From positions 4,092,001 through 4,156,000 of the forward strand of contig NZ_CP018082.1 in the NCBI RefSeq assembly GCF_001886715.1: a stretch of 64,000 nucleotides of DNA, in the 5' to 3' direction. Position numbers and translations under genes: made by a program. Shown piece by piece: positions 1,660-60,893 of this stretch (position 1 is the stretch's first letter; the number at the start of each line of letters is the position of its first letter). The notes below the pieces were generated by a model. That model did no database searches. It was not told the origin of the DNA and saw only the letters and a list, made by a program, of their open reading frames with translations. This DNA is from Nocardia mangyaensis (GTDB lineage Bacteria; Actinomycetota; Actinomycetes; Mycobacteriales; Mycobacteriaceae).

Positions 1660-1696
1660 GGAAATATGATTCTCGCTTCAAGCGAACAATATATCC
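1660..1696. promoter_or_regulatory. Tandem degenerate operator upstream of the aldehyde dehydrogenase
   Basis: GGAAATATGATTCTC at 1660-1674 keeps the right half ATTCTC exactly and 4 of 6 bases of the left half GAGAAT. After a 7-base spacer a weaker copy, GCGAACAATATATCC, lies at 1682-1696. The copies start 22 bases apart, as at other promoters in this window. The site begins 22 bases upstream of the minus-strand ATG. Binding by the TetR paralogues is inferred. Confidence 0.6.
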
Positions 1697-1798
1697 GCCC
1701 GTGGCACACCATACGAGCCGAATGCCGCGACCGAGCGGCCGATTGGCGGCAGATCATCGCCAAAAGCACGTCATCAGCTCTTGCGGAGGCACTCTCGG

Positions 1799-1815
1799 CG
1801 AGAGTACGGTTCTCG
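1799..1815. promoter_or_regulatory. Palindromic operator upstream of the TauD-P450 operon
   Basis: CGAGAGTACGGTTCTCG is an inverted repeat matching the consensus GAGAAT-N3-ATTCTC, with A-to-G in the left half and A-to-G at the first base of the right half. It ends 24 bases before the dioxygenase ATG, so a bound repressor would sit on the promoter or the start of the message. The site at 31643 is almost identical (GAGAGT-AGG-GTTCTC) and similarly placed. Confidence 0.7.
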
Positions 1816-1838
1816 CAACCGGAAGGGAGATTCTTGTG

Positions 1839-2642
1839 ATGCACACTACAGCGCTGCGACCCGCGATCGGGGTGGCGGTCACCGGCGTCGCCGATCTGCA
1901 CGACGACACAGTGGTCAGCCGGTGCCTCGAGGCGCTGAAATGGCGCGGTGTGCTGGTCGTGCGCGGTCTGCACCTCGACGACGAGGCCCAGCTCGCGTTC
2001 TGCCGCGAGCTGGGCACGGTGCTGGCCCCCGGCGGCCGGGAGATCTTCACGATCACGCTCGATCCCGCGAAGAATCGGGCGGCCAAATATCTCGAGGGCA
2101 CCTTCTTCTGGCACATCGACGACACCACCAACGCGGTACCCGCCAAAGCCACCGTGCTCACGGCCCGCCACGTCGCCATGGAAGGCGGCGGCACGCAGTT
2201 CGCCAGCACCTACGCCGCCTACGAGAACCTCCCCGCCGCGGACCGCAAGCGCTACGAAAGCCTGCGGGTGGTGCACAGTTTCGAGGCATCCCAGCGCCTG
2301 GTGCATCCCGATCCGACACCCGAGCAGGTCGCGGACTGGCGTACCCAGCCGACCCACGAGACGGATCTGGTCTGGGCGCGCAAGGACGGCCGCAAGTCCC
2401 TGGTGATCGGCGCCACCGCCGATCACATCGTCGGCATGGCTCCCGACGAGAGCCGGGCGCTGCTCGACGAATTGCTCGACTGGTCGACTCAGGAGCGCTT
2501 CGGCTACACCCATGACTGGACCGTCGGCGACCTGGTGATCTGGGACAACACCGGAATCCTGCATCGGGCTCTGCCGTATCAGGCCTCCTCCGAACGCGAA
2601 CTGCACCGGACCACCCTCGCCGGCGAGGAGGCGTGGGCGTGA
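1839..2642 (+). CDS. TauD/TfdA-family Fe(II)/2-oxoglutarate-dependent dioxygenase
   Basis: The 267-residue protein has the iron-binding HxD in FFWHIDDTT (H92, D94), the distal His in GILHRALPY (about H242) and a following Arg in LHRTTL that would hold 2-oxoglutarate. The family hydroxylates an unactivated carbon, often next to a carboxylate, sulfonate or ether, with release of CO2 and succinate. The ATG at 1839 has GGAAGGGAGA upstream; an in-frame GTG at 1836 is the alternative. It is the first gene of an operon whose next gene overlaps by four bases (GTGA). It probably starts oxidation of a substrate or side chain; the substrate is unknown. Confidence 0.88.
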   Translation: MHTTALRPAIGVAVTGVADLHDDTVVSRCLEALKWRGVLVVRGLHLDDEAQLAFCRELGTVLAPGGREIFTITLDPAKNRAAKYLEGTFFWHIDDTTNAVPAKATVLTARHVAMEGGGTQFASTYAAYENLPAADRKRYESLRVVHSFEASQRLVHPDPTPEQVADWRTQPTHETDLVWARKDGRKSLVIGATADHIVGMAPDESRALLDELLDWSTQERFGYTHDWTVGDLVIWDNTGILHRALPYQASSERELHRTTLAGEEAWA

Positions 2643-3343: not shown

Positions 3344-3361
3344 CCGCCACACCAATACACC

Positions 3362-3387: not shown

Positions 3388-3412
3388 CGAACACCTATCG
3401 AAGGGAATTCCC

Positions 3413-4491: not shown

Positions 4492-5853
4492 ATGACCGCC
4501 GACGATGTAGCGACCGACGAAGCACGGAAGAAACCCCGATTCTCGTTCGATAGATTCGCCCCCGGATATCGGGACGAATTCACCGCGACCACCGAGGCCA
4601 TGCAGGACCAGTGCCCGATCGCCTGGTCCGACACCCACGACGGGCACTGGGTCGCTGCGGGCAACCGCGAGGTCTTCGAGCTCGCCCGCTGCCCGCACAT
4701 CTCCAACGACCACGATACCGCCGGGGTGCGGCGCGGATACAAGGGCATCTCCATCCCGAAAGCACCACGGGCCAGCGGGGTTCGGGGCGGCATCCTGGAG
4801 ATGGACGAGCCCGAGCATCGCGAGGTGCGCTCGGTGCTGAACCCCTATCTCTCCCCCGCCGCCGTCGCCCGGTGGATCCCGTTCATCGACGAGGTCGTGC
4901 GGGCCGCGCTCGATGAGAAGATCGAGTCGGGCCACATCGATTTCGTCGACGATCTCGCCAATATCGTGCCCGCCGTGCTGACCCTGGGCATGTTGGGTAT
5001 CCCGCTCGCGAAATGGACGATCTACAACGAGCCGGCCCACGCGTCGGTGTACACACCACCGGACTCCCCGGAGTATCCACAGGTGGCGGAGATGCACCGC
5101 ACGATGGGAATCGACCTGCTGCAGAATCTGTTCGAGATCAGGGAGAATCCGCGTCCCGGCCTGATCAACGCGATCAACAACGCGACGATGAACGGTGAGC
5201 CGCTCCCCGATCTGGAAATGCTGGGCATGCTCGGCCTGCTCATCGGCGGTGGCTTCGACACCACCACCGCGCTCACCGCGCACGCCCTGGAGTGGCTGTC
5301 GGAGAACCCGGATCAGCGCGAAATGCTGAGCCGGGAACGCGACGACCTCCTCGACTCCGCCACCGAGGAATTCCTGCGCTACTACACACCCGCACCGGGT
5401 GACGGGCGCACGATCGCCGAGGACTGCGAGGTCGTCGGCACCGAGTTCAAGGAAGGCGACCGGGTGTGGCTGTCGTGGGCGATGGCCAATCGGGATCCGG
5501 CGGTCTTCGAGGACCCGAACGAGGTCATCCTGGACCGACGGCGCAACCGGCACTACAGCTTCGGGCTCGGCATCCACCGCTGCATCGGCTCGAACGTGGC
5601 CCGCACCGTGTTCAAGCGCATGCTGCTCGCGGTTCTCGACCGGATGCCGGACTTCCGCTGCGATCCCGAGACCACGGTGCACTACGACACCATCGCGATC
5701 ATCCAGGGCATGCGCCACCTCCCGGCGACCTTCACCCCGGGCCCGCGGCTCGGGGTCGGACTCGACGAGACGCTGGCGAAGCTCCAGGCGATGTGTGACG
5801 AACAACAGCTCGCCGCACCCGTCACGGCCCACAAGGACACCAGCACATCGTGA
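4492..5853 (+). CDS. Cytochrome P450
   Basis: The 453-residue soluble bacterial P450 has the I-helix motif GGGFDTTT, the K-helix ExxR in EEFLR, and the haem-binding FGLGIHRCIGSNVAR with the Cys ligand at about residue 364. It carries out NAD(P)H-driven monooxygenation using the ferredoxin encoded just upstream. A distant reductase is needed; the reductase at 52034 looks more suited to the Rieske enzyme. The C-terminus extends about 40 residues beyond the usual end. Its TGA overlaps the GTG of the next gene. The substrate is unknown. Confidence 0.93.
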   Translation: MTADDVATDEARKKPRFSFDRFAPGYRDEFTATTEAMQDQCPIAWSDTHDGHWVAAGNREVFELARCPHISNDHDTAGVRRGYKGISIPKAPRASGVRGGILEMDEPEHREVRSVLNPYLSPAAVARWIPFIDEVVRAALDEKIESGHIDFVDDLANIVPAVLTLGMLGIPLAKWTIYNEPAHASVYTPPDSPEYPQVAEMHRTMGIDLLQNLFEIRENPRPGLINAINNATMNGEPLPDLEMLGMLGLLIGGGFDTTTALTAHALEWLSENPDQREMLSRERDDLLDSATEEFLRYYTPAPGDGRTIAEDCEVVGTEFKEGDRVWLSWAMANRDPAVFEDPNEVILDRRRNRHYSFGLGIHRCIGSNVARTVFKRMLLAVLDRMPDFRCDPETTVHYDTIAIIQGMRHLPATFTPGPRLGVGLDETLAKLQAMCDEQQLAAPVTAHKDTSTS

Positions 5854-7520
5854 GCGACGAGATCGCCGAGGCATCAGGGCGGCCGCTGCCCCTGGTGACG
5901 GCGGAGAACGAGTTCTTCTGGACCGCAGGCGCCGACGGGCGCCTGCGGATCCAGGAGTGCCGACAGTGCGCGGCCCTGATCCATCCACCACAGCCGGTGT
6001 GCCGATACTGCCGCGGGCACACCCTCGGTGTCCGCGATGTCTCCGGCTTCGCCACGCTCATCGGCTTCACCGTCAACCATCGGTTCGGGGTACCAGGGCT
6101 GACCGCGCCGTACATCGTGGCGCAGGTCGCCGTCGAGGAGGATCCCCGGGTCCGGCTCACCACCAACATCGTGGGCTGCGATCCGGCCGATCTCGTGCTG
6201 GGGATGCGGATGACGGTCGTCTTCGAGCAGGACGCGGAGGTGTGGTTGCCGCTGTTCCGGCCCACCGACGAACAGCCCGAACCCGCGCCCCTGCCCACCG
6301 ACGAGATCGAACCGCACCGGTTCGGTGAGCACGTACGGCCGATGATCGGTCGAGACAAGTTCGAGGACAAGGTCGCCATCACCGGCATCGGGATGTCGGA
6401 GATCGGTCGGCGCCTGATGGTCTCGCCGCTGTCGCTGACGATTCAGGCCTGCGAGCGCGCGGTCGCCGATGCCGGGCTCACCATGGCCGACATCGACGGC
6501 CTGTCGACCTACCCCGGTGGCGGCAATGTCGGCGGTTTCGGCGAGGGCGGGGTGAGCGCGCTCGAGGCCGCACTCGGACTTCGCCCGACCTGGTACAACG
6601 GCGGTTTCGAGACCTTCGGTCCCGGTGGGTCGGTGATCGCGGCGATGCTGGCCGTCGCCGGCGGCCTGGCCAGGCACGTGCTGTGCTTCCGGACCGTCTG
6701 GGAAGCCACCTACAACGAGTTGATCCGCGCCGGCAAGATCACGCCGGCGAGCGGACGGACCACCAGTTGGATGATGCCCTTCGGCGCCACCTCGGCCGCG
6801 CACACGTTGGCGCAGAACGCGCAACGACATTTCCACCGCTACGGCACCACGCGGGAGACGTTGGGCTGGATCGCGCTCAACCAGCGAGCCAACGCCGAAC
6901 TGAATCCGACCGCGGTGTATCGCGATCCGATGACAATGCAGGACTACCTGGAGGCCAGACCGGTCACCACCCCGTTCGGTCTCTTCGACTGTGACGTTCC
7001 CTGCGACGGCGCGGTCGCCGTGCTGGTTTCGGCGATCGACACCACCCCGGACCTGGCCAAACCGCCGGTGCGGGTGGCCGCGGTGGGTACCCAGATCCTC
7101 GAGCGCATCGAGTGGGACCAGAGCACCCTCACCCATGAACCACAGGTTCTCGGTCAAGCCGCGCACCTGTGGTCGCGCACCTCGCTGCGCCCCGCCGATG
7201 TCGATGTCGCCGAACTCTACGACGGGTTCAGCTTCAACTGCCTGTCCTGGATCGAAGCCCTCGGCTTCTGCGGCATCGGCGAGGCCAAGGACTTCCTCGA
7301 CGGCGGCAAGAACATCGCGCGCGACGGACTGCTGCCGCTCAACACCCACGGTGGTCAGCTGTCCCACGGCCGTACCCACGGCATGGGGTTGTTGCACGAG
7401 GCGGTCAGCCAGCTGCGTGGCGAGGCCGGTCCCCGGCAGGTCGCCGACGCACGCGTCGCGGTGACCAGCAGCGGCGGTCTGACCCCCAGCGGCGTCCTCC
7501 TGCTGACCAGCCAGACCTGA
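5850..7520 (+). CDS. DUF35 (zinc ribbon + OB) fused to a thiolase-fold protein, probable acyl-CoA aldolase
   Basis: The 556-residue fusion has two parts. Residues about 1-150 form a DUF35 protein: a zinc ribbon with two CxxC pairs (CRQC, CRYC) and an OB fold. Residues about 170-556 form a thiolase fold of the lipid-transfer/SCP2 group. The segment that normally holds the thiolase nucleophilic Cys (N-x-C-A-S/T-G) reads instead NGGFETFGPGGS, with no Cys. YDGFSFN and NTHGGQLSHGRTHG are kept. DUF35-Ltp2 complexes in steroid side-chain degradation are retro-aldolases lacking that Cys, so C-C cleavage of a beta-hydroxyacyl-CoA is the best guess. GTG 5850 overlaps the P450 stop (GTGA). Confidence 0.82.
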   Translation: MSDEIAEASGRPLPLVTAENEFFWTAGADGRLRIQECRQCAALIHPPQPVCRYCRGHTLGVRDVSGFATLIGFTVNHRFGVPGLTAPYIVAQVAVEEDPRVRLTTNIVGCDPADLVLGMRMTVVFEQDAEVWLPLFRPTDEQPEPAPLPTDEIEPHRFGEHVRPMIGRDKFEDKVAITGIGMSEIGRRLMVSPLSLTIQACERAVADAGLTMADIDGLSTYPGGGNVGGFGEGGVSALEAALGLRPTWYNGGFETFGPGGSVIAAMLAVAGGLARHVLCFRTVWEATYNELIRAGKITPASGRTTSWMMPFGATSAAHTLAQNAQRHFHRYGTTRETLGWIALNQRANAELNPTAVYRDPMTMQDYLEARPVTTPFGLFDCDVPCDGAVAVLVSAIDTTPDLAKPPVRVAAVGTQILERIEWDQSTLTHEPQVLGQAAHLWSRTSLRPADVDVAELYDGFSFNCLSWIEALGFCGIGEAKDFLDGGKNIARDGLLPLNTHGGQLSHGRTHGMGLLHEAVSQLRGEAGPRQVADARVAVTSSGGLTPSGVLLLTSQT

Positions 7521-15123: not shown

Positions 15124-15160
15124 GGAAATCATCTTCTCATCAAAAGAGAATAAAGTTAAC
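15124..15160. promoter_or_regulatory. Tandem operator upstream of the ABC importer operon
   Basis: GGAAATCATCTTCTC (15124-15138) and GAGAATAAAGTTAAC (15146-15160) are two half-degenerate copies of GAGAAT-N3-ATTCTC, separated by 7 bases and starting 22 bases apart. The inner half-sites (TTCTC, then GAGAA) are intact. The element is 82-118 bases upstream of the binding-protein start. Confidence 0.6.
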
Positions 15161-18783: not shown

Positions 18784-18820
18784 GAGAATAACATTCTCGT
18801 AGGAAGAAAGTAATAGTCTC
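18784..18820. promoter_or_regulatory. Tandem operator between the FadE operon and tetR regulator 1
   Basis: GAGAATAACATTCTC (18784-18798) is a perfect match to the consensus and extends to CGAGAAT...ATTCTCG. After GTAGGAA comes GAAAGTAATAGTCTC (18806-18820), matching 9 of 12 half-site bases. The copies start 22 bases apart. The element lies 40 bases before the FadE ATG and about 100 bases before the divergent tetR start, so it may control both genes. Confidence 0.85.
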
Positions 18821-18918
18821 CAAGATCGGGAGACACGGGAGGTGACCACCGATGGATATGACGTTCTCCGGTACAGTGCACCCATGTTCTGCACACATCA
18901 CCCAGGACGGAGACGGCC

Positions 18919-19575
18919 GTGACCAGCGTCAGCGAAGAGCCCGCGTGGAAGCAGCGGGCCGTCGAGCGGTCCATTCGGGGGGCGAAACTGCGCGCCGAGC
19001 AGCGGGTGCAAAAGTTCCTCGATGCGGCGCAGGCGATCATCACCGAAAAAGGCACCACCGACTTCACCGTGCAAGAAGTGGTCGACCGTTCGCGTCAGTC
19101 ACTGCGCAGCTTCTACCTGCAGTTCGACGGTAAACACGAGCTGTTGCTCGCGTTGTTCGAGGACGCGCTCGACCGCACGGCGGATCAGCTGGCGGCGGCC
19201 GCCGAGGGCAAGACCGACCCGCTGGACCGCCTGCGGGTCACCGTCGAGTTGCTGTTCGAACTATGCAGGCCCGACCCGGTCGCGCAGCGTCCCCTGTTCA
19301 CCGATTTCGCGCCGCAACTGCTGGTGTCGCATCCCGCCCAGGTCAAGATCGCGCACGCGCCACTGCTGTCGCTGTTCACCGAACTGATGGAACAGGCCAA
19401 GAAGGCGGGAAGGCTGCGCGAGGGCCTCGATCCGCGGCGGATGGCGGCCGTGGTGATGCAGACGGTCATGTTCACCGCGCAGTCGGCGGGCGGCGCCGAC
19501 GAGGACGTCGCCCACCCGATCACCGCGAGCGAGGTCTGGGACTTCTGCGCGTTCGGATTCGCCACGGGCGAGTAG
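18919..19575 (+). CDS. TetR-family transcriptional regulator 1
   Basis: The 218-residue protein has an N-terminal helix-turn-helix (about residues 28-75: FLDAAQAIITEKGTTDF, then the recognition region SRQSLRSFYLQF) and a C-terminal ligand domain containing FTDFAPQLLVSHPAQVKIAHAPLLSLF. The regulator encoded at 45251 shares nearly all of the DNA-binding domain and much of the ligand domain. It is divergent from the FadE operon with a strong palindrome between them. It probably represses the island until a CoA-thioester intermediate is bound; the ligand is not known. The GTG at 18919 gives the family-like EEPAWKQRAV opening. Confidence 0.9.
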   Translation: MTSVSEEPAWKQRAVERSIRGAKLRAEQRVQKFLDAAQAIITEKGTTDFTVQEVVDRSRQSLRSFYLQFDGKHELLLALFEDALDRTADQLAAAAEGKTDPLDRLRVTVELLFELCRPDPVAQRPLFTDFAPQLLVSHPAQVKIAHAPLLSLFTELMEQAKKAGRLREGLDPRRMAAVVMQTVMFTAQSAGGADEDVAHPITASEVWDFCAFGFATGE

Positions 19576-22186: not shown

Positions 22187-22223
22187 GAGAACATTATTCT
22201 CTCAGCAAGAGAGTGCTGATTTC
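22187..22223. promoter_or_regulatory. Tandem operator in the divergent ligase/SDR promoter region
   Basis: GAGAACATTATTCTC (22187-22201) differs from the consensus by one half-site base. After TCAGCAA comes a weaker copy, GAGAGTGCTGATTTC (22209-22223). The copies start 22 bases apart. The element sits between the ligase start and the SDR start at 22240, and can affect both. Confidence 0.75.
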
Positions 22224-23047: not shown

Positions 23048-23767
23048 CTACGAGGTGCGGCGGGTGAGGGCTGCGTCGGCGGCAACCCAGTGCTCATCCG
23101 CCACCCACAGCCGGGCGAACGCGTCGACCGCCTCCTGCGGCGAGACGCCCGCGACGATCCGCTTGATCTCCCCCGCCTGCGCGGTCGCCAGCGAGCGGGC
23201 CAACGCGCGCCAGCCGTCCTCGAAGTCCGCGCGCGCGAACACCCGGTCGACCAACCCCAGCCGTTCGGCTTCGGTCGCGTCGACAATGGTGGCCGTTCCG
23301 GCCAGCAAGACCGCGCGTCCCTTTCCCACCAGTGCCGCGAGCCGCTCGGCACCACCCCAGGCGGGCATGATCGCCAGTGCGGATTGGTTGAAGCCGATCT
23401 TGATGTCGGCGGCGGCGACGCGGATGTCCGCGGCGACGGCGACCTCGGCACCACCACCGAAGGCGTGCCCGTTGAGCGCGGCGATCACGGGAGCGGGGAA
23501 AGCCGCGAGCCGATCGCAGATCGAGCGCATGCGCCAGGCCATCGCGGCGGCCTGCTCCTCGGTACGCAGCGCACTGAGCTCTTTGAGATCTCCGCCGGAG
23601 ACGAACGCCCGATCACCAGCTCCTCGAATGACCAGAGCACGGGCGCCCGCCGCCTTGTCCAGCGCCTCGTCCAGCTCGTCCATGGTGACCGGTGCGATGG
23701 CGTTGCGGGCGTGCGGGCGATTGATCGTGACGACCGCGATACCGGCCTCCAGCTCCAGCTCGACCAT
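23048..23767 (-). CDS. Enoyl-CoA hydratase/isomerase family protein
   Basis: The 239-residue crotonase begins MVELELEAGIAVVTINRPHARNA and has the oxyanion-hole segments GDRAFVSGGDLKEL and NGHAFGGGAEVA. The position of the first catalytic Glu reads GFNQSALAIMPAWGGAE, so that Glu is replaced by a small residue; the specific reaction is uncertain. Its start codon lies inside the outermost copy of the operator at 23765-23823. It is convergent with the SDR gene; a 16-base perfect palindrome (23032-23047) lies between the two stops. Confidence 0.85.
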   Translation of the reverse strand: MVELELEAGIAVVTINRPHARNAIAPVTMDELDEALDKAAGARALVIRGAGDRAFVSGGDLKELSALRTEEQAAAMAWRMRSICDRLAAFPAPVIAALNGHAFGGGAEVAVAADIRVAAADIKIGFNQSALAIMPAWGGAERLAALVGKGRAVLLAGTATIVDATEAERLGLVDRVFARADFEDGWRALARSLATAQAGEIKRIVAGVSPQEAVDAFARLWVADEHWVAADAALTRRTS

Positions 23768-23823
23768 AAATGCATTCTCCCATTATGAGATTGTTATTCT
23801 TGTCGAGAGAGAATAGCATCGCC
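23765..23823. promoter_or_regulatory. Triple phased operator between crotonase and ligase genes
   Basis: Three copies of the operator start 22 bases apart. 23765-23779 (CATAAATGCATTCTC) has an intact right half. 23787-23801 (GAGATTGTTATTCTT) has 10 of 12 half-site bases. 23809-23823 (GAGAATAGCATCGCC) has an intact left half. The copies are separated by 7 bases each. The first overlaps the crotonase ATG on the minus strand. The divergent ligase starts 36 bases after the last copy. Confidence 0.7.
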
Positions 23824-29143: not shown

Positions 29144-30312
29144 GACGCGCCTGCCGCGTCCGGCCCGGCCAGGATCGTCACGGCCGCGACCGCGGTGGGA
29201 CCACCGATGGTGTGCGCCAAACCGATTCGAGCCCGATCGACCTGATTCACCGCCTCGCCGCGCAGCTGCTCGAACAGCTCGACGCACTGCGCGACACCGG
29301 TAGCGCCCGGCGGATGTCCCTTCGACTTCAAGCCCCCGCTCGGATTCACCGGTAGCGCACCGCCGACGCTGGTGACGCCCGCCTCCACGAGCTTGTGGGC
29401 CTCGAACCGGTCGGCGAACCCGAGATCCTCGTAGCTCATCAACTCGATGCCGGTGAAGAAGTCGTGCACCTCGGCGACATCGATGTCGGACGGGGTCAGC
29501 CCGGCCATGCCGAACGCCTGCCGAGCGGCGCGGACCGTGGCGGGGAAAGTCGTCATGTCCCGCTTGTGCTGGTGCATCACCGAATCCATGCCGAGCCCCA
29601 CCCCGCGAATCCAGACGGGGCGATCGGTGTAGCGGTCCACCACGTCTTCGGCGACCAGCACGAGCGCCGCCGCCCCGTCGCTCTGCGGCGCGCAGTCGTA
29701 GAGCCCGAAGGGCGTGACCACCGTCGGTGCCGCGAGGGCTTCCGCCATGCTGATCTCGAAGCGCAACCGCGCCTTGAGATTTCGGACGCCATGCCGATGG
29801 TTCTTCACCGCGACCATGGCCATGTGCTCCCGCGTGGCCGGCGATTCGTGCAGGTACCTGGCCACATGCAGCGCGAACCCGGCGGGCGCGACCAGTCCGA
29901 GCGGGTAGTCCCAGGCCATGTCGCGGGTCATCGCCTCCCACTCCCACAGCATGTCCTTGGACGCCGACTCGCGCAGCTTGTCCGCGCCGATCACCAGAGC
30001 GACGTCGATGGCGCCGGACGCGATCCCGAGCAGGGCGTTGCGGACCGCGTCGTGCCCGGTGGCACAGGCGTTTTCGACGCGGGTCACCGGAATGTCGGAC
30101 AGGCCGAGGGTGTCGGCGAGAATGCCGGAGGCGAACCCGTCGGCGGTACCGAGCTCGCCGAACCAGGCAGCCTGGATGTCGGACTTGCGCAGCCCCTTGT
30201 CGATGCTGCGCGCGCAGTCGGCGAAGGCCATCGGCACCAGGTCTTTGATGCCGAGCGCGAAATGCTCGGCGAAGGGCGTCATTCCGGCGCCGACGATGGC
30301 GACTCTTCTCAT
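29134..30312 (-). CDS. Thiolase of the SCP2/lipid-transfer type
   Basis: The 392-residue protein begins MRRVAIVGAGMTPFAEHF and has a nucleophile-like Cys in VENACATGHDAVRNA (about residue 85), PSGGLKSKGHPPGATG with the catalytic His, and AHTIGGPTAVAAVTIL near the end. SCP2-type thiolases cleave branched or sterol-side-chain 3-oxoacyl-CoAs. Its start overlaps the HMG-CoA-synthase-like/DUF35 gene by four bases, an arrangement seen in archaeal thiolase-HMGCS-DUF35 complexes, so the two proteins probably form a complex. Confidence 0.87.
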   Translation of the reverse strand: MRRVAIVGAGMTPFAEHFALGIKDLVPMAFADCARSIDKGLRKSDIQAAWFGELGTADGFASGILADTLGLSDIPVTRVENACATGHDAVRNALLGIASGAIDVALVIGADKLRESASKDMLWEWEAMTRDMAWDYPLGLVAPAGFALHVARYLHESPATREHMAMVAVKNHRHGVRNLKARLRFEISMAEALAAPTVVTPFGLYDCAPQSDGAAALVLVAEDVVDRYTDRPVWIRGVGLGMDSVMHQHKRDMTTFPATVRAARQAFGMAGLTPSDIDVAEVHDFFTGIELMSYEDLGFADRFEAHKLVEAGVTSVGGALPVNPSGGLKSKGHPPGATGVAQCVELFEQLRGEAVNQVDRARIGLAHTIGGPTAVAAVTILAGPDAAGASQP

Positions 30313-31519: not shown

Positions 31520-31555
31520 GATAATCTGATTCTCATATTAGAGAATGAAGTCTAG
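31520..31555. promoter_or_regulatory. Tandem operator upstream of the HMGCS-like/thiolase operon
   Basis: GATAATCTGATTCTC (31520-31534) differs from the consensus at one half-site base. It is followed after six bases by GAGAATGAAGTCTAG (31541-31555), which has an intact left half. The copies start 21 bases apart. The element begins 21 bases upstream of the minus-strand ATG at 31499. Confidence 0.7.
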
Positions 31556-31642: not shown

Positions 31643-31657
31643 GAGAGTAGGGTTCTC
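31643..31657. promoter_or_regulatory. Palindromic operator upstream of the small-protein/hydrolase operon
   Basis: GAGAGTAGGGTTCTC matches the consensus with one change per half and is the same variant as the site at 1799. It ends 23 bases before the ATG at 31680, nearly the same distance as at the dioxygenase operon. Confidence 0.7.
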
Positions 31658-31679
31658 CACCCATTGAATGGGAAGTCTC

Positions 31680-39519: not shown

Positions 39520-39556
39520 GAAAACTAGCTTCTCCTTCAAGGAGAATCAATGACCC
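39520..39556. promoter_or_regulatory. Tandem operator facing the seven-gene beta-oxidation operon
   Basis: GAAAACTAGCTTCTC (39520-39534) and GAGAATCAATGACCC (39542-39556) start 22 bases apart. The inner halves form the perfect inverted repeat TTCTCCTTCAAGGAGAA. It lies 41-77 bases upstream of the ATG at 39479. Confidence 0.7.
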
Positions 39557-39578: not shown

Positions 39579-39615
39579 GGAAATCTTACAGTTCAAATGT
39601 GAGAATGCGATTCTC
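39579..39615. promoter_or_regulatory. Operator upstream of the Rieske operon
   Basis: GAGAATGCGATTCTC (39601-39615) is a perfect consensus site, 20 bases before the first ATG (39635). A weak copy, GGAAATCTTACAGTT (39579-39593), precedes it with the same 22-base spacing and shares its left half GGAAAT with the copies at 1660 and 15124. Confidence 0.8.
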
Positions 39616-44471: not shown

Positions 44472-45254
44472 GTGGACGCTGTCGAACTCGATCTGCTGGC
44501 CCAGACCTTGCGCAAGGCGATGCGGGATTCGTCGGGTACCGGCCTACTTGCCGCGCTCGTCGATCTGGGGTGGCACGACATGCTCATCGAGGCACCCGAT
44601 TCCACGGTGCCCCTGGTGTTTCGGCTGCTCGGCGAGACCGGCGCGCATGCTCCGCTGCTCAATGATGTGATCCACGCTGCCGCGGGTCGGCCCGCGGCGG
44701 GCCCCCTCCCCCTCCCCTATGCCGGAGGCAGCTGGGTCCAGTGGGACCACACCGACGACGACGGCTCACTGTTGGACCCGGACCTGCCGATCCGGCAGGT
44801 ACCGCCGGGGCTCGAGATCCCGCTCGCCGCGGGTCGCCGGGCGCTGGGCTGGTGGCTGACCGGCGCGAGCCGAGCGATGCTCACCCTCGCCCGCACCCAT
44901 GCCATCGACCGGGTCCAGTTCGGCCGTCCGGTGGCATCGTTCCAGGCCATCCGACACCGGCTCGCCGAGGCCCTCGTCGCCATCGAAGGCGCCGAAGCCA
45001 CGCTCGAGGCCGCCACCGACGACCTGGGTTGTCTGCTGGCCAAAGCCGCCGCGGGCCAGGCAGCGCTGGTGGCCGCCCGGCACTGCCAGCAGACCCTGGG
45101 CGGCATCGGCTTCACCGCCGAACACGATCTGCACCGCCACCTCCGGCGCGTTCTGGTCCTCGACGGACTGCTCGGGAGTTCCCGCGAACTCCTCCGCGAG
45201 GCGGGCACCACCGTCCGCACCGCGGGGACAGCCGCACGCCTGGTGCAGCTGTGA
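44472..45254 (+). CDS. Short acyl-CoA dehydrogenase-like partner subunit
   Basis: The 260-residue protein keeps mainly the C-terminal FadE domain (ASRAMLTLARTHAIDRVQFGRPVASFQAIRH, then QTLGGIGFTAEHDLHRH), with a much reduced N-terminal half (full FadEs have about 380 residues). Such short partners occur in heteromeric FadE enzymes. GTG 44472 follows the catalytic subunit by three bases. Its stop overlaps the start of tetR 2. Confidence 0.82.
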   Translation: MDAVELDLLAQTLRKAMRDSSGTGLLAALVDLGWHDMLIEAPDSTVPLVFRLLGETGAHAPLLNDVIHAAAGRPAAGPLPLPYAGGSWVQWDHTDDDGSLLDPDLPIRQVPPGLEIPLAAGRRALGWWLTGASRAMLTLARTHAIDRVQFGRPVASFQAIRHRLAEALVAIEGAEATLEAATDDLGCLLAKAAAGQAALVAARHCQQTLGGIGFTAEHDLHRHLRRVLVLDGLLGSSRELLREAGTTVRTAGTAARLVQL

Positions 45255-45910
45255 GCGAGCACGCGGAGCCCGCCTGGAAACAACGTGCCGTACAGCGCTC
45301 GCTCGAGACCACCCGGCTGCGGGCCGAACAGCGGGTACAGCGGTTCCTCGATGCGGCACAGGCGATCATCGCCGAGAACGGCTGTACCGACTTCACCGTG
45401 CAGGAGGTCGTCGAGCGGTCGCGCCAGTCGTTGCGCAGTTTCTATCTGCAATTCAACGGAAAGCACGAGTTGCTGCTCGCCCTGTTCGAGGACGCGCTGC
45501 TGCGCACCGCCGAGCAGATCCGCGCCGCCGCGGCGAAGGAGGCCGACCCGCTCGCCCGGCTCGCGGTCGCGGTGCGGCTGCTGTTCGCGCTGTGCCGCTC
45601 CGACCCGAAGGATCGGCACCCGCTGTTCACCGATTTCGCGCCACGCCTGCTGGTCACTCATCCCACCCATGTCACCGTCGCCCACGCGCCACTGCTGTCG
45701 CTGTTCGTCGAACTGGTCACCGACGCCGCGGCCGCGGGCACGCTGCGGCCCGGACTGAATCCCCGCCGCGTGGCCGCCATGACGATGCAGACCGTCATGT
45801 TCACCGCCCAGTCCAGTGGCGCCCAGGACGACACGGCCATGCGCCCGATCACCGCCGACGAGATCTGGGATTTCTGCGCGGCCGGTGTCACCGGCCGCGC
45901 GAGAATATAA
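45251..45910 (+). CDS. TetR-family transcriptional regulator 2
   Basis: The 219-residue regulator is a close paralogue of the one at 18919. EPAWKQRAV, FLDAAQAII, TDFTVQEVV and SRQSLRSFYLQF are shared, as are FTDFAP and HAPLLSLF in the ligand domain. It is the last gene of the Rieske operon (GTGA overlap), so it is expressed together with the catabolic genes, which have a perfect operator at 39601. This is a negative feedback arrangement if it represses. Its stop codon lies within the next operator. Confidence 0.9.
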   Translation: MSEHAEPAWKQRAVQRSLETTRLRAEQRVQRFLDAAQAIIAENGCTDFTVQEVVERSRQSLRSFYLQFNGKHELLLALFEDALLRTAEQIRAAAAKEADPLARLAVAVRLLFALCRSDPKDRHPLFTDFAPRLLVTHPTHVTVAHAPLLSLFVELVTDAAAAGTLRPGLNPRRVAAMTMQTVMFTAQSSGAQDDTAMRPITADEIWDFCAAGVTGRARI

Positions 45911-45937
45911 TTCTCCTTCCTGGAGAATATGAATTAC
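45901..45937. promoter_or_regulatory. Tandem operator overlapping the tetR 2 stop codon, upstream of the thioesterase
   Basis: GAGAATATAATTCTC (45901-45915) is a perfect consensus site containing the TAA stop of tetR 2. After CTTCCTG comes GAGAATATGAATTAC (45923-45937), starting 22 bases from the first. The thioesterase ATG follows four bases later (45942), so its transcript is probably very short-leadered or leaderless. Confidence 0.85.
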
Positions 45938-46869: not shown

Positions 46870-46913
46870 CCGAGGCGAATACCCCTACCGTGCCTGGTCG
46901 GGGCTCGCCTCGG
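46870..46913. terminator. Possible stem-loop between thioesterase and meaB ends
   Basis: CCGAGGCGA (46870-46878) pairs with TCGCCTCGG (46905-46913) with an inner CCCC/GGGG stem. The hairpin overlaps the last codons of the convergent meaB gene. A role in ending the thioesterase transcript is plausible but unproven. Confidence 0.4.
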
Positions 46914-47784
46914 CCAGCAACTGTTCCGCAGCGGTGTAGGCGTCGCGCCGACCGGCCGCGACAGCGGCGGCGAGGTCATCCAGACCGGGGTGACCGCGCA
47001 GCCGCGACTGCGCCAGGGACAGGATCTGCGCTCGAGCGCGCGCGGCACCGCGCGCCGCGGTATCGGCCCGGTGGTGGGTGTCGATCGCCTCGATCAACTC
47101 CTCGACTCCGGTGCCGCGCGCGGCGACCAGGGTCAGGATCGGCAGACCGGTCTCGATGTGCAATTCCCGCGCGGTCTGCGCGGCGCCGTCGCGATCGGCC
47201 TTGTTGACCACCAGAATGTCGGCGACCTCGAGCAGCCCGGCCTTGGCGGCCTGAATGGCATCTCCGGCACCGGGATTGAGGATGACGACGGTCGGATCGG
47301 CGACCGCGGCGATCTCGATCTCGGACTGCCCGACGCCGACCGATTCCACCAGGACCAGACCATAGCCGAGCGCACCGAGCAGCCGGATCGCCGCGGGGAC
47401 CGCCGCGGCGAGGCCACCGAGGTGCCCCCGGGTGGCCACCGATCGGATCAGCACGTCGGAGTCGTCGATGTGCGCCGACATTCGGATGCGGTCCCCGAGC
47501 AGCGCACCGCCGCTGTAGGGCGAGGACGGGTCGACCGCGAGCACCGCCACCCGCAGGCCGCGCGCGCGGTATCCGGTGACCAGGACCGCGATGGTCGTGG
47601 ACTTGCCCGCCCCAGGCGGCCCGGTCACCCCCACCACGCGGACCGGCGCCGGGTCGAGCAGCGCGAGCACTCGCTCGCGATCCGCGCTCTCGACCAGACT
47701 CAGCAGCCGTCCGGCAGCGCGAACCGAACCGGCACGCGCCGAGGCGATCAACGCGCCGAGGTCGGCGGGCAGGCAACTGTTCAA
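46885..47784 (-). CDS. meaB: MeaB/ArgK-type GTPase, chaperone of B12-dependent acyl-CoA mutases
   Basis: The 299-residue G3E GTPase has the P-loop GVTGPPGAGKSTT (about residue 55), the switch stretch VESVGVGQSEIEIA, and the base motif NKAD. MeaB proteins protect and reload methylmalonyl-CoA-type mutases with adenosylcobalamin. The mutase genes lie about 8 kb away (55237-57224) on the same strand. The TTG start at 47784 follows GGGAGCGG. It is the last gene of the ligase-FadE-crotonase operon beginning at 51938. Confidence 0.88.
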   Translation of the reverse strand: MNSCLPADLGALIASARAGSVRAAGRLLSLVESADRERVLALLDPAPVRVVGVTGPPGAGKSTTIAVLVTGYRARGLRVAVLAVDPSSPYSGGALLGDRIRMSAHIDDSDVLIRSVATRGHLGGLAAAVPAAIRLLGALGYGLVLVESVGVGQSEIEIAAVADPTVVILNPGAGDAIQAAKAGLLEVADILVVNKADRDGAAQTARELHIETGLPILTLVAARGTGVEELIEAIDTHHRADTAARGAARARAQILSLAQSRLRGHPGLDDLAAAVAAGRRDAYTAAEQLLAEASPDQAR

Positions 47785-51959: not shown

Positions 51960-52018
51960 GAGAAGATCCCATCTTGCAAGAGAGAATAGTATTCTCTTTC
52001 CATAAGAATCTTCATACC
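51960..52018. promoter_or_regulatory. Triple phased operator between ligase operon and ferredoxin reductase
   Basis: AGAGAATAGTATTCTCT (51981-51997) is a perfect 17-base palindrome with the consensus core at 51982-51996. It is flanked by weak copies at 51960-51974 (GAGAAGATCCCATCT) and 52004-52018 (AAGAATCTTCATACC). All three start 22 bases apart. The array fills the space between the divergent starts at 51938 and 52034. Confidence 0.85.
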
Positions 52019-55236: not shown

Positions 55237-55647
55237 TCAGGCACTCGGATCAGGGGACGGGACATTCGTCAGCGCCCGGATCTCGGTGACCAGGGTTTCC
55301 AGCGAAGTGCCGGTCGGGAACACCGCCGCCGCACCGACTTCGAGCAGCCGGGCCACATCCGACTGTGGAATGGTGCCGCCGACGATCACGGCGATATCGC
55401 CCGCGCCTGCCGCCCGTAGCGCGTCGACGGTGCGGGTGGTCAGCGACACGTGCGCACCCGAGAGGATGCTCAGCCCGACAACGGCGACGTCCTCCTGCAG
55501 CGCGATCGACACGATGTCCTCGATGCGTTGGCGGATACCGGTGAAGACCACTTCGAAACCGGCGTCGCGCAGCGCGCGGGCGACGATCTTGGCCCCGCGA
55601 TCGTGGCCGTCGAGGCCCGGTTTGGCGACCAGCACGCGGGCGGTCAT
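55237..55647 (-). CDS. B12-binding small subunit of an acyl-CoA mutase
   Basis: The 136-residue protein MTARVLVAKPGLDGHDRGAK has the cobalamin-binding DxHxxG motif (D-G-H-D-R-G, lower axial His about residue 15), then LSILSG and VGGTIP segments of the same fold. It forms the adenosylcobalamin site of a mutase together with the large subunit. ATG 55647 overlaps the large-subunit stop (TGATG). A longer reading into the mutase gene is not needed. Confidence 0.92.
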   Translation of the reverse strand: MTARVLVAKPGLDGHDRGAKIVARALRDAGFEVVFTGIRQRIEDIVSIALQEDVAVVGLSILSGAHVSLTTRTVDALRAAGAGDIAVIVGGTIPQSDVARLLEVGAAAVFPTGTSLETLVTEIRALTNVPSPDPSA

Positions 55648-57224
55648 CAGAACACCACCGGCTGCTGGAACTCGCCCCAGACACTTTTCAGCGCGGCGGT
55701 CATCTCCCCCACCGTGCAGTACGCGTTCGCGCACTCGATCAGGTAATGCATCAGGTTCTCGTTTCCCTCGGCGGCCGTGGACAAGGCGGTGAGACAGCTC
55801 CGAACGGCCACGGAATCGCGTTCGGCCTTCACCCTGGCGAGCCGCTTCAGTTGCAGGTCGCGGCCCTCGGCATCGAGTTCGTAGGTCGCGATCTCGGGTG
55901 CGGGCTCGTCGGAGACGAAACGGTTGACCCCGACGACCGGACGGGTGCCGGCCTCGACGTCCTTGTGGAGCTGGTAGGCCTCATCGGCGATCAGGCCCTG
56001 CAGGTAACCGTCCTCGATCGCGGCCACCATGCCACCGTGCCGCTCGAGGTCATCCATGATGTCGATGATGCGAGCCTCGGTCTCGTCGGTCAGCGCCTCG
56101 ACGAAGTAGGAACCACCGAGCGGATCGGCGACCCGGGTGACCCCGGTTTCATAGGCGAGAATCTGCTGAGTGCGCAACGCCAGCGTCGCCGACTCCTCAC
56201 TCGGCAACGCGAACGGCTCGTCCCAGGCCGCGGTGAACATCGACTGCACCCCGCCCAGCACCGAGGCCATCGACTCGTAGGCGACTCGCACCAGGTTGTT
56301 CTGTGCCTGCGGCGCGTACAGCGAGGCACCGCCCGCGACACAGCCGAAGCGGAACATCGAGGCCTTGTCGGTGGTGGCCCCGTAGCGCTCGCGCACGACC
56401 GTCGCCCACCGCCTGCGTCCCGCACGATATTTGGCGATCTCCTCGAAGAAGTCACCGTGGGTGTAGAAGAAGAACGAGATCTGCGGCGCGAACTGGTCGA
56501 TGGTCATCCGGCCGCGTTCGACCACGGTGTCGCAGTAGGTGACACCGTCGGCGAGGGTGAACGCCATCTCCTGCACCGCGTTCGCGCCGGCGTCGCGAAA
56601 GTGCGCGCCCGCCACCGAAATCGCGTTGAATCTCGGCACCTCGGCCGCACAGAACTCGATGGTGTCGGCGATCAACCGCAGGGACGGTTCCGGCGGCCAG
56701 ATCCACGTGCCGCGCGAGGCGTACTCCTTCAGGATGTCGTTTTGGATGGTGCCGGTGAGCTTTTCGCGGGGCACACCCTTCTTCTCGGCGGCCGCCACAT
56801 ACAACGCCAGCAGGATCGCGGCCGTGCCGTTGATCGTGAAGCTGGTACTGATCTTGTCCAGCGGCATGCCGTCGAAGAGGATTTCGGCGTCGGCCAGGGT
56901 GTCCACCGCGACGCCGACTCGGCCGACCTCTTCGGTCACCTCCGGATCGTCGGAGTCGTAACCACATTGGGTCGGTAGATCCAGCGCGACCGACAACCCG
57001 GTTCCGCCCTGGTCCAGCAGGTAGCGATAACGGCGATTGGACTCCTCGGCCGTGCCGAAGCCGGAGTACTGGCGAAACGTCCACAACCGCCCGCGATAGC
57101 CGGAGGCGAAGTTGCCGCGCGTGAAGGGGAAGCCGCCCGGCGCGGGCGGCTCGGCGGCTCGGTCCGCCGGTCCGTAGACCGGCGAGAGCGGGATGCCGGA
57201 CGAGGTCTGTATCGGATCGTTCAT
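55647..57224 (-). CDS. Acyl-CoA mutase large subunit, methylmalonyl/isobutyryl-CoA mutase family
   Basis: The 525-residue TIM-barrel subunit has LWTFRQYSGFGTAEESN, GLSVALDLPTQCGYDSDDP and GTIQNDILKEY. By alignment it keeps residues equal to Tyr89, Arg207 and His244 of methylmalonyl-CoA mutase (YRGRLW, ASRGTW, GAHFRDAGA). The loops that usually read H-T-Q-T-A/S-G and H-T-N-S read GCVAGG and FTAA. It rearranges the carbon skeleton of a branched acyl-CoA with a separate B12 subunit encoded next. The changed loops suggest an unusual substrate. Family assignment is firm; substrate is not. Confidence 0.9.
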   Translation of the reverse strand: MNDPIQTSSGIPLSPVYGPADRAAEPPAPGGFPFTRGNFASGYRGRLWTFRQYSGFGTAEESNRRYRYLLDQGGTGLSVALDLPTQCGYDSDDPEVTEEVGRVGVAVDTLADAEILFDGMPLDKISTSFTINGTAAILLALYVAAAEKKGVPREKLTGTIQNDILKEYASRGTWIWPPEPSLRLIADTIEFCAAEVPRFNAISVAGAHFRDAGANAVQEMAFTLADGVTYCDTVVERGRMTIDQFAPQISFFFYTHGDFFEEIAKYRAGRRRWATVVRERYGATTDKASMFRFGCVAGGASLYAPQAQNNLVRVAYESMASVLGGVQSMFTAAWDEPFALPSEESATLALRTQQILAYETGVTRVADPLGGSYFVEALTDETEARIIDIMDDLERHGGMVAAIEDGYLQGLIADEAYQLHKDVEAGTRPVVGVNRFVSDEPAPEIATYELDAEGRDLQLKRLARVKAERDSVAVRSCLTALSTAAEGNENLMHYLIECANAYCTVGEMTAALKSVWGEFQQPVVF

Positions 57225-57250: not shown

Positions 57251-57265
57251 GAGAATGCCAATACC
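57251..57265. promoter_or_regulatory. Weak candidate operator between mutase and SDR genes
   Basis: GAGAATGCCAATACC has an intact left half GAGAAT and 3 of 6 bases in the right half. It lies between divergent starts at 57224 and 57320. Flanking phased copies are not convincing, so this is a low-grade member of the set. Confidence 0.35.
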
Positions 57266-58655: not shown

Positions 58656-58662
58656 GGGGTGA

Positions 58663-59499
58663 CTACTTGAGCATTCCGCCCGCGTCGATCGGCAGGGGCA
58701 CACCCGTCACGTAGCGAGCCTCGTCCGAGGCCAGATACAGCACCGCGTTGCTGACGTCCTCGGGCTCGATCCAGGCCACCGGCAACGTGTGGAACAGCCT
58801 GGCGATGGGCTCGAGATCCGCGGGCCCCGGGCTCTCCAGATCGGGGCGGAACAGCTTGTAGGTGCCCTCGTTCATCACCATGGGGGTGTTCACGTGCGTC
58901 GGGTGGACCGAATTGACACGAATGGAGTGCTGCGCCAGTTCCACCGCGAAGGTTCGCATGAGCCCGACGACACCGTGTTTGGCCGCGACATAGTGGCCGA
59001 TATTGGGGTAGGCCTTGAGCCCGCCCACCGAGCTCGTCAGGATCACCGAGCCGCCGCGTTCACCGGCGATCATGTGCGGGACAGCGGCTTTCACCGATTT
59101 CCAGACCCCACCGAGGTTGACGTCGATCATGTCGTCCCACAGGTTCTCCTGCAGGTCGACCAGCGCGCCGCCCTCGTTGCCGATCCCCGCGTTGGCGACG
59201 ATGATGTCGAGCCGCCCGAGCTCGGCGACCCCGCCGTCGACCGCGGCTTTGAGTCCGTCGTAGTCGCGCACGTCCACCTCGGCGGTGACCACTCGCCTGC
59301 CCTGGCCCCGGATGAGATCAGCGGTGGTCGCCAGATCCTCCGGGGTCGACATCGCGAACGGCACGTTGTCGAGTTGTTTGCAGACATCGATGGCGATGAT
59401 GTCCGCGCCTTCCTGCGCCAATCGCACCGCGTGACTACGGCCTTGACCGCGCGCCGCTCCGGTGATGAATGCGACCTTGCCTTCGACCCGTCCGGTCAT
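58663..59499 (-). CDS. Mycofactocin-associated SDR family oxidoreductase
   Basis: The 278-residue SDR begins MTGRVEGKVAFITGAARGQGR and has the subfamily insertion (IDVCKQLDNVPFAMSTPEDL) and HYVAAKHGV (Y-x3-K, about residues 172-176). It is a paralogue of the enzyme at 3413, and both lie beside a P450 and a 3Fe-4S ferredoxin. It probably oxidises the alcohol made by that P450, with mycofactocin as acceptor by family analogy. Confidence 0.88.
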   Translation of the reverse strand: MTGRVEGKVAFITGAARGQGRSHAVRLAQEGADIIAIDVCKQLDNVPFAMSTPEDLATTADLIRGQGRRVVTAEVDVRDYDGLKAAVDGGVAELGRLDIIVANAGIGNEGGALVDLQENLWDDMIDVNLGGVWKSVKAAVPHMIAGERGGSVILTSSVGGLKAYPNIGHYVAAKHGVVGLMRTFAVELAQHSIRVNSVHPTHVNTPMVMNEGTYKLFRPDLESPGPADLEPIARLFHTLPVAWIEPEDVSNAVLYLASDEARYVTGVPLPIDAGGMLK

Positions 59500-59529
59500 G
59501 GTTACCTACCTCTGTCGTTGTTGTCGTGG

Positions 59530-60807
59530 TCAGGAGTGGGGAGTGAAGTCGATGTGCAGTTCGCTGAGCCCACGGAGCAGGAACGTCGGTTCGTAGCCGT
59601 AGGTGCGCTCGCCGACCGGACCGTGCCGCTCGGCGTTGATCTCGATGTCGAGCATGCGATCGAGGATTCGCTCGATCGAGACCCTGCCCTCGACGCGCGC
59701 GAGCGGACCGCCTGGGCAGGTGTGCACGCCGCGGCCGAAGGCGATGTGCTCGCGGAAGTTGTCGCGGTCCAGCCGGAACTCGTGCGGATCCTCGAATCGG
59801 CGCGGGTCCCGATTGGCCGCGCCGGGGCAGAACATCACCAAGCCACCGGCCGGGATGTCCACATCGCCGACGGTGGTGGCACGGCGGGCCAACCGGAATC
59901 CGCTCTTGACCGGCGCGTCCATCCGCAGGGTCTCCTCGATGAAGTTCGGGATCAGGCTGCGGTCCTCGCGCAATCGCTGCTGCACCTCGGGCTGATCACC
60001 CATGATTCGCACCGCGGCACCCAGCACCTTGGCCGTGGTTTCCTGCCCCGCGGCGAACAAGAAGGTCGCCGACCGCACCACGTCGATGACCTCCGGGGTG
60101 GTGCCGTCCGGGTACTTGGCCAACGCCAAGGACGTCAGCACGTCATCGCGTGGCTCGTCGCGGCGGTCCGAGATGTAGGCACTGAATTTCTCGTCCAGCC
60201 ACGCCAAGGGATTGCTGGAGAGAGCTTCGTTGTCGATCGCACCGGGCCGAGCTCCCGGCCGGGACGCACCGAGCACGACACGAAATTGTTCGTGGTCGGC
60301 TTCGGGAACGCCGAGCATATCCGCGACGACCAGTAGTGCGAACGGCTTCGCGTATTGAGAAAGAAATTCACAGTGGCCCGCATCGGCGAACTCGTCGAGC
60401 TGCTGGTCCGCCAGCCGCCACATGAATTCTTCGTTTTCTTTCAAACGGGCCGGCGTGAGCAGACGGTTCAAAACCGACCGCGCGAAAGTGTGCTGCGGGG
60501 GGTCCATCGTCACCATGTGCTCATACATCGGCAATTCGGTCCGGTGCTGCTCGATGAGCTCGCTGATATCGTCCCCGACCGGCGTGAAAGGCAGCGGCGG
60601 AAAGGGCCCGCCGACCGCGACAGCAGAGGAGAAGATCGACGAATCCTTGAGCACCTCAGCCGATTCCTCGTATCCGGTGACGGCGTAGACACCGTAGTGC
60701 GGCTCTTGGGTTACCGGGCACTTCGCCCGTAGATGATCGAAATAGGGGTGCGGATCAGGAATCAGATCCGGGTCGGTGAAGTAGTTCACAGTATCGAAAT
60801 CGGTCAC
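59530..60807 (-). CDS. Cytochrome P450
   Basis: The 425-residue P450 has the I-helix FAAGQETTAKVLG (acid-alcohol pair replaced by E-T), ExxR in EETLR, and haem motif FGRGVHTCPGGPLAR with Cys about residue 364. VTDFDTVNYFTDPDLIPDPHPYF opens the protein. GTG 60807 with GGAG seven bases before it is preferred to an ATG at 60864. It is followed by its SDR and ferredoxin. The second P450 of the window is not a close copy of the first. Confidence 0.92.
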   Translation of the reverse strand: MTDFDTVNYFTDPDLIPDPHPYFDHLRAKCPVTQEPHYGVYAVTGYEESAEVLKDSSIFSSAVAVGGPFPPLPFTPVGDDISELIEQHRTELPMYEHMVTMDPPQHTFARSVLNRLLTPARLKENEEFMWRLADQQLDEFADAGHCEFLSQYAKPFALLVVADMLGVPEADHEQFRVVLGASRPGARPGAIDNEALSSNPLAWLDEKFSAYISDRRDEPRDDVLTSLALAKYPDGTTPEVIDVVRSATFLFAAGQETTAKVLGAAVRIMGDQPEVQQRLREDRSLIPNFIEETLRMDAPVKSGFRLARRATTVGDVDIPAGGLVMFCPGAANRDPRRFEDPHEFRLDRDNFREHIAFGRGVHTCPGGPLARVEGRVSIERILDRMLDIEINAERHGPVGERTYGYEPTFLLRGLSELHIDFTPHS

Positions 60808-60856
60808 GGAGAACTCCAGCTGATCGGGAAGCGACGACAAAGGGGCGCACTTCGAT

Positions 60857-60893
60857 GGTAACAACCATATGCAATTTTGAGAACATCATTTCC
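60857..60893. promoter_or_regulatory. Weak candidate operator upstream of the second P450
   Basis: GAGAACATCATTTCC (60879-60893) keeps 9 of 12 half-site bases. A weaker copy, GGTAACAACCATATG, lies 22 bases before it. The region is 50-86 bases upstream of the preferred P450 GTG on the minus strand. Confidence 0.45.

Follow-up and report, generated by a model that had tools for sequence, protein, structure and literature searches.

KstR, the mycobacterial repressor of cholesterol catabolism, is a TetR regulator with a short palindrome at many lipid-catabolic promoters; it binds a 29-bp probe as one dimer, and 83 genes are predicted for it in M. smegmatis (PMC1995591; this and the other papers below are cited from excerpts of their text). 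Binding by more than one dimer is known in the TetR family from DarR (PMC10636190) and from CprB and QacR (PMC4150764), with FadR of S. acidocaldarius as a further case, and a reference title in PMC5895659 speaks of cooperative octamerization of EthR of M. tuberculosis on its operator. Here we describe a stretch of 64,000 nucleotides (the window, positions 4092001-4156000) from the single-contig genome (7,310,115 bases, 7.31 Mb) of a soil bacterium of the genus Nocardia, in which the palindrome GAGAAT-N3-ATTCTC (GAGAATNNNATTCTC) recurs at the promoters of a catabolic island, at most loci together with a weaker copy 21-22 bp away. Two paralogous TetR genes, TetR1 and TetR2, lie in the same window. 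We consider it quite probable that the two paralogues are repressors whose dimers occupy the tandem operators next to each other, on one side of the helix, and thereby switch the island.

Regulation of the island would thus work like catabolic repression of the KstR type, with an unusual, conserved and helically phased doublet. The genes of the KstR regulon are of types similar to those of the island. Besides the regulator family and the short palindrome at many promoters, the KstR half-site TAGAAC resembles GAGAAT of the island, and the KstR motif partly overlaps a putative -10; the motif itself, TnnAACnnGTTnnA, has a 2-base spacer and so differs from GAGAATNNNATTCTC, and the excerpts of that paper hold no 21-22 bp doublet rule (PMC1995591). 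KstR2 shares with the island the TetR family, divergent promoters and a clustered regulon, but has the motif AnCAAGnnCTTGnT and three sites for 15 genes (PMC3068626). TetR1 was rejected as an orthologue of KstR or KstR2, by sequence similarity only: KstR chains match it at E 0.0078-0.0097 at best, and KstR and KstR2 chains together at E 0.0019-0.0097, behind other TetR proteins. The island motif was likewise rejected as a KstR or KstR2 operator, GAGAATNNNATTCTC being set against TnnAACnnGTTnnA or AnCAAGnnCTTGnT.

BkaR, a mycobacterial TetR protein, has two palindrome copies in one intergenic region, which its authors read as repression in both directions, but its 16-bp core is GTTA(N)T(N4)A(N)TAAC and about ten genes are directly controlled (PMC3920632). 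In DarR, two TetR-family dimers touch each other on the operator, though on one 20-bp palindrome, whereas the island offers two separate 15-bp copies with a gap of 6-7 bases (PMC10636190). The QacR/CprB class also has two dimers binding cooperatively (PMC4150764), but the island copies do not overlap; a QacR-type dimer pair on overlapping or shared half-sites and opposite faces was rejected, the copies lying 6-7 bp apart with starts 21-22 bp apart. The motif string had no match in open-licence full-text literature. Among the matches listed from that literature, no title named the regulon of the island, and no regulon with a fixed two-turn doublet at most operator loci was found, although one may be described elsewhere.

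Distribution of the motif

Perfect copies of GAGAAT-N3-ATTCTC start at 18784, 39601, 45901 and 51982 of the window, and near-perfect ones at 1800 (two mismatches), 22187 (one), 31520 (one) and 31643 (two), all as listed in a preliminary description of this DNA. When up to three mismatches are allowed, GAGAATNNNATTCTC is found at 30 places in the window, compared with 8.99 ± 2.66 in 100 dinucleotide shuffles (largest 16). Perfect copies number only five in the whole genome and fall within 60 kb, from 4084194 to 4143982; four are inside the window and the fifth lies 7.8 kb upstream of it (4084194). At up to one mismatch there are 12 places in the genome, 7 of them in the island. The five outside have 6-12 mismatches at every offset of 21-23 bp, i.e. 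a partner with at most 6 of 12 matches. An equal density of sites elsewhere in the genome, which the preliminary description had named as a refutation, was not found: the perfect sites, and the matches of the model below, are all in the island. The partners of the island sites 31643, 39601 and 57251 are no better than those of the outside places.

A doublet model of 37 positions (15 + 7 + 15) was trained on 36 doublets from other species only (36 of 47 non-redundant 37-mers), some of which are orthologous to promoters of the window. When the model was searched against the Nocardia genome itself (E ≤ 10), with 150 of 380 first-look candidates scored, 11 matches at 9 distinct loci were obtained, all of them in the island, spanning 4084194-4144015; two loci matched on both strands. 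The best match in the genome was the doublet 22187..22223, an orthologous site of which is in the training set. In 184 kb around the island the model gave 12 matches, every one in the island, and it gave none in 14 control stretches (280 kb), so that the clustering anticipated for a matrix scan was indeed seen. Chance matches in AT-rich DNA were ruled out by the shuffles and the control stretches. Control maxima were 14.4 for single sites and 13.6 for pairs; as single sites, 57251 (11.8) and 39520 (14.2) fall below the former, and the pair at 39520 (16.7) exceeds the latter. The site at 60879 scores 16.6, its partner being absent.

The observation of the preliminary description is confirmed and its reading as one regulon of roughly 60 kb is supported, with the correction that the set extends beyond the left end of the window. 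The site at 60879, just upstream of a P450 gene, is weak and partnerless, and another at 60357, within the P450 frame and without partner, is probably a chance match.

Spacing of the copies

The preliminary description had also proposed a second copy about 22 bases from the first. For the 15 primary sites of the island, the best partner at 21 or 22 bp was scored on the 12 specified bases and compared with 2000 mononucleotide shuffles of the flanks. The partners summed to 111 matches as compared to 66.4 ± 4.6 after shuffling, and none of the 2000 shuffles reached 111. Eleven of the 15 primaries (-7806, 1660, 1800, 15146, 18784, 22187, 23787, 31520, 39520, 45901 and 51982) have a partner with at least 7 of 12 matches, and four do not (31643, 39601 and 57251, 6 of 12 each; 60879, 5 of 12). 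The 7-match partners (1660, 1800, 31520 and 51982) are individually unremarkable, being equalled at 5-10% of other spacings, and the primaries 15146, 23787 and 39520 are themselves weak and were recognised partly through their membership of a pair. The spacing of 21 instead of 22, noted previously at 31520, was found there and also on the upstream side at 39580/39601. At one further promoter three copies follow each other in steps of 22 bp (23765/23787/23809). The spacing was judged by this partner-only test and not by a scan of summed pair scores, since in such a scan one strong copy is enough to exceed the threshold and island pairs pass at many other spacings too.

The rule extends beyond this genome. 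Of 167 sites (up to one mismatch) in 80 named loci of TetR relatives, 88 had a second copy (up to four mismatches) at +22 and 13 had one at +21, the runner-up offset. Since sites in these loci often belong to orthologous promoters, we reduced the set to sites with dissimilar flanks; a flank-identity filter brought 239 strong sites from all fetched loci to 105 non-redundant ones. Of these, 52 had a partner of up to four mismatches at 21/22 on either side, as compared to a mean of 1.1 (maximum 6) for other adjacent spacing pairs. With this genome excluded, such partners were found at 25 of the 53 sites from Nocardia islands (shuffled flanks mean 0.35, maximum 3), and at 11 of 24 sites in loci from Mycobacterium, Mycolicibacterium and Rhodococcus (mean 0.24, maximum 2), after filtering from 65 and 43 sites, respectively; a metagenome-assembled genome labelled Acidobacteria (L127) is in neither set. 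B-DNA has 10.5 bp per turn and 22 bp correspond to about 2.1 turns; therefore, neighbouring dimers would occupy one face of the DNA. The conservation of the 21-22 bp spacing in these sequences is consistent with cooperative tandem binding.

Anatomy of the pair

From 201 oriented sites, 92 non-redundant ones were aligned, chosen for a partner of up to five mismatches and with the partner turned rightward. The strong copy is nearly invariant, its outer left half GAGAAT being kept at 99, 100, 96, 100, 98 and 96% in these sites, which were picked by that half. The second copy reads GARAGTnnnAnTYYC, its conservation being inflated because of the choice for a partner. We therefore repeated the count blind to the partner, on TetR-promoter sites (75, 35 non-redundant) and on the other sites of the same loci (92, 35 non-redundant). 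At TetR promoters the copy at +22 matched 3.40 of 6 bases in the near half and 3.89 of 6 in the far half (means at other offsets, 1.56 and 1.32), and at other promoters the near half matched 3.63 of 6 (1.58). The near half is the best-matched offset at both kinds of promoter, and the far half likewise at TetR promoters. Thus, the TetR promoter has two whole operators, and at many others a single whole operator is accompanied by a third half-site that is good and a fourth that is poor. The strong copy followed by a GAAAGTAATAGTCTC-like copy occurs at the TetR promoter in Nocardia, Mycobacterium and one Rhodococcus locus, where the doublet 18784..18820 has its counterpart in the corresponding place.

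A GTACAGTGCATnCATG-like block is present downstream of this doublet (18860-18895 of the window) and upstream of TetR in the loci L202-L206 and L208; in the six loci inspected it appears to be the core promoter of TetR. Just before the block, three of the six loci have a further degenerate operator (2-3 mismatches).

The TetR proteins and their co-occurrence with the sites

Both proteins exceed the curated cut-off of TetR_N (PF00440), TetR1 with 32.4 and TetR2 with 32.3 bits, and the recognition-helix region RQSLRSFYLQF is identical in the two, the helix being placed by analogy with the family. Among named relatives, the proteins nearest to TetR1 come from N. fluminea and N. salmonicida and share 93-96% identity with it. 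AlphaFold2 predicted an all-helical TetR fold for TetR1 (mean predicted local distance difference test, pLDDT, 86.8 in the best model and 66.7-86.8 in the five), with EthR2, Rv0078, YvdT and FadR as best matches in PDB. The FadR proteins among these nearest folds are acyl-CoA-binding or acyl-CoA-responsive, and such folds would fit a coenzyme A (CoA)-ester inducer without demonstrating one. In the model the first helix is long, spanning residues 9-44, and a conserved N-terminal arm forms part of it; one may speculate that this arm touches DNA or the neighbouring dimer.

Among 78 Nocardia genomes, a perfect site was present in 31 of the 35 with a close relative of the TetR and in 3 of the 43 without (Fisher p = 8e-14, a guide only, as the test ignores shared descent). 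The TetR-positive genomes with such sites hold 223 of them in total. The doublet model (E ≤ 0.1), run on 31 genomes, had matches in 9 of 9 TetR-positive ones, including one with a TetR fragment (G002) and one with a 58% relative (G015), and in none of the 22 others. This joint occurrence of sites and TetR in related genomes suggests that one regulator type governs the block. Of the 80 named loci, from Nocardia, Mycobacterium, Mycolicibacterium and one Rhodococcus, 75 carry a strong site in the 400 bp upstream of TetR; the TetR is therefore the best candidate for the binder, in agreement with the link to the TetR proteins drawn previously. The co-occurrence could also reflect the joint presence of TetR and its island. 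In the reading that we prefer, GAGAAT-N3-ATTCTC would be the operator of TetR1 and very probably of TetR2 too.

Genomes with at least two TetR copies (n = 20) have 4-14 perfect sites each; among those with one copy (n = 15), nine have 0-2 and six have 5-10. It looks as if the regulon often grew together with a TetR paralogue. The regulator had no tblastn match at 1e-15 in a plasmid collection or at 1e-10 in a phage collection, and these collections thus gave no sign of its spread by plasmid or phage.

Weighing of alternative explanations

That only a single dimer sits at each promoter, the strong 15-bp copy alone being the operator and the second copy being kept for overlap with the core promoter or for contact through a single half-site, appears unlikely to us. 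This would account for the half of the non-redundant sites that lack a good partner and for the far half of the second copy being hardly conserved outside the TetR promoter, and TANNNT hexamers, which are -10-like, are common within the strong copy (at one offset, 52 of the 92 aligned sites), but no -35 column stands out in these sites. However, at the TetR promoter the weak copy is conserved in its two halves, across genera and when no partner is selected for, the near half GAGAAT, the best conserved element at the other promoters, is neither a -10 nor a -35 consensus, and the triple array repeats at 22-bp steps. That TTCTC-N7-GAGAA, the inner palindrome, serves as the actual operator, the outer halves being incidental, is very improbable. 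This palindrome accompanies every good third half-site, and the fourth is weak outside the TetR promoter, but the outer left GAGAAT is as invariant as the inner half (in sites picked by the outer one), strong 15-bp sites without a partner are common, and the 15-bp pattern by itself tracks the TetR. A single inner palindrome was hence rejected as operator and the 15-bp unit looks basic, as the preliminary description had taken it to be. A mobile or structural repeat with no operator function, such as curved AT-rich DNA or a REP-like (repetitive extragenic palindrome) element, is hardly credible: the sites are indeed AT-rich patches within DNA of 66-71% GC, but their spacers and flanks vary from site to site, they adjoin start codons, their position upstream of TetR is kept across genera, and the reversed motif has no match in the genome at up to one mismatch.

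It is possible, if doubtful, that the TetR paralogues divide labour, each copy or promoter being read by one of them and the array integrating two signals. The presence of two paralogues in the island and the richness in perfect sites of the 20 multi-copy genomes are in line with this. The identity of RQSLRSFYLQF, however, means that DNA specificity should not differ, and six of the 15 single-copy genomes are rich in sites as well. Related to this is the tentative and rather doubtful idea that mixed rows of dimers, or heterodimers, of paralogues with one DNA specificity and different ligand pockets add two metabolic signals, with the strength of the second copy setting the order in which promoters switch; the weakest second copy would then be a lone third half-site, usable only by a dimer assisted by its neighbour.

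Several observations weigh against the tandem binding of same-face dimers that we prefer. The island sites 57251 and 60879 are weak, and 53 of the 105 non-redundant strong sites lack a partner of up to four mismatches at 21/22; the pair is therefore common, not required. At promoters other than that of TetR the far half matches 2.23 of 6 bases, with other offsets averaging 1.36 and reaching 2.26 at best, and this partner-blind result slightly lowers our confidence. The doublet at TetR1 lies 99 bp before the TetR1 start, which makes autoregulation of TetR1 uncertain. Three TetR-negative genomes carry 1, 1 and 2 perfect sites, and four TetR-positive genomes have no perfect site, though G034, G065 and G094 keep a site with 2 or 3 mismatches upstream of TetR (G085 has none there). 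The shared descent of the genomes, given above as a limit of the Fisher test, belongs here as well.

Operator loci and genes of the island

Each of the 15 operator loci (Table 1) has at least one start codon no more than 82 bp away, and 20 starts are flanked in all, the start codons having been assigned by us from frame and upstream sequence.

Table 1. Candidate operator loci and TetR genes (window coordinates)
Feature	Position	Strand	Context
Leftmost operator locus	-7828 to -7770		precedes amidohydrolase/ligase operon
Doublet, 2-mismatch copy + degenerate copy at +22	1660..1696		22 bp upstream of aldehyde dehydrogenase start (minus)
Doublet, 2 mismatches + degenerate copy at +21/22	1800..1836		directly upstream of TauD-family dioxygenase start 1839
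Doublet, two 3-mismatch copies 22 bp apart	15124..15160		82 bp upstream of LIV-type ABC transporter operon (minus)
Perfect + 3-mismatch copy at +22	18784..18820		between FadE operon (minus) and TetR1 (plus)
TetR1	18919..19575	+	218 aa, TetR_N; candidate operator-binding protein
One-mismatch + copy at +22	22187..22223		between acyl-CoA ligase operon (minus) and SDR gene (plus)
Three copies (3, 2, 3 mismatches), 22-bp steps	23765..23823		between enoyl-CoA hydratase (minus) and ligase operon (plus)
One-mismatch + degenerate copy at +21	31520..31555		21 bp upstream of ChsH2-domain protein/thiolase operon (minus)
Two-mismatch + poor copy at +22	31643..31679		directly upstream of plus-strand start 31680 (small open reading frame, then alpha/beta hydrolase)
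Doublet, 3 mismatches + copy at +22	39520..39556		41 bp upstream of FadE/thiolase operon (minus)
Perfect at 39601 + poor copy 21 bp upstream	39580..39615		20 bp before CMD/Rieske operon (plus)
TetR2	45251..45910	+	219 aa, TetR_N; paralogue 71% identical to TetR1
Perfect + 3-mismatch copy at +22	45901..45937		between TetR2 end and thioesterase start
Perfect + degenerate copy at +22	51982..52018		between ligase/FadE operon (minus) and flavin/2Fe-2S reductase (plus)
Weak 3-mismatch site, no good partner	57251..57265		between acyl-CoA mutase operon (minus) and SDR gene (plus)
Weak 3-mismatch site, no partner	60879..60893		15 bp upstream of CYP150-like P450 (minus)

Sixty likely coding frames were listed in the window; a few are doubtful, and some genes, TetR2 for example, did not pass the filter used for the list. 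The window holds three adjacent pairs of FadE acyl-CoA dehydrogenases as well as single FadEs, CoA ligases, thiolases, ChsH2-type proteins, enoyl-CoA hydratases, short-chain dehydrogenases/reductases (SDRs), CoA transferases, an ATP-binding cassette (ABC) transporter of LIV type, a Rieske oxygenase, a flavin/2Fe-2S reductase, two P450s, a split B12 acyl-CoA mutase with MeaB and the two TetR genes. The 69-kb block probably degrades a lipid-like compound.

Thiolase-like proteins are paired or fused with ChsH2-type zinc-ribbon/OB domains at 5850-7520 (+) and 29134-31499 (-), a pairing which we take to be as in the steroid side-chain retro-aldolase pair. The split mutase (55237-57224 and 46885-47784, both minus) has its own MeaB, its B12 domain was found, and its large subunit is closest to the 2-hydroxyisobutyryl-CoA mutase 4r3u; it possibly acts on a branched or quaternary-carbon acyl-CoA. 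The P450 at 59530-60864 (-) is very close to CYP150A6 (PDB 6dcd, 708 bits), and the related CYP150A5 converts beta-ionone to 4-hydroxy-beta-ionone (PMC6237146). This hints at a cyclic terpenoid or steroid-like substrate. The island is flanked by two apparent mce-type gene sets (L015 1041-9554, and window 61609 to L016 6103), with MlaD/Mce4_CUP1 domains in the single mce-type member scanned per side.

Proposed regulation and its significance

Computation gave the motif and its confinement to the island, the spacing rule of 21-22 bp, the conservation across genera and the co-occurrence with TetR. Binding by TetR1 and TetR2, cooperation of dimers, repression and the class of inducer are what we infer for the working of the island. 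At most loci the strong copy and the weaker copy 21-22 bp away would be occupied by two dimers side by side on the same face, located just upstream of start codons and covering the promoter zone. At promoters other than that of TetR, it would be mainly the near half-site, and presumably the neighbouring dimer, that keeps the second dimer in place. When no inducer is present, about 20 transcription units would be kept silent. All of them would be released together by an inducer, which is most likely an intermediate formed early from the substrate, such as a CoA thioester.

Sequence analysis by itself has yielded candidates for the operator and the regulators of an uncharacterised catabolic pathway, together with most of its transcription units, and the regulator occurs in many Nocardia and Mycobacterium species. 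The island offers a sharp test case for cooperation of TetR dimers through a two-turn spacing over an entire regulon, and its operator set helps to delimit the genes of the pathway, which is a practical step towards the substrate.

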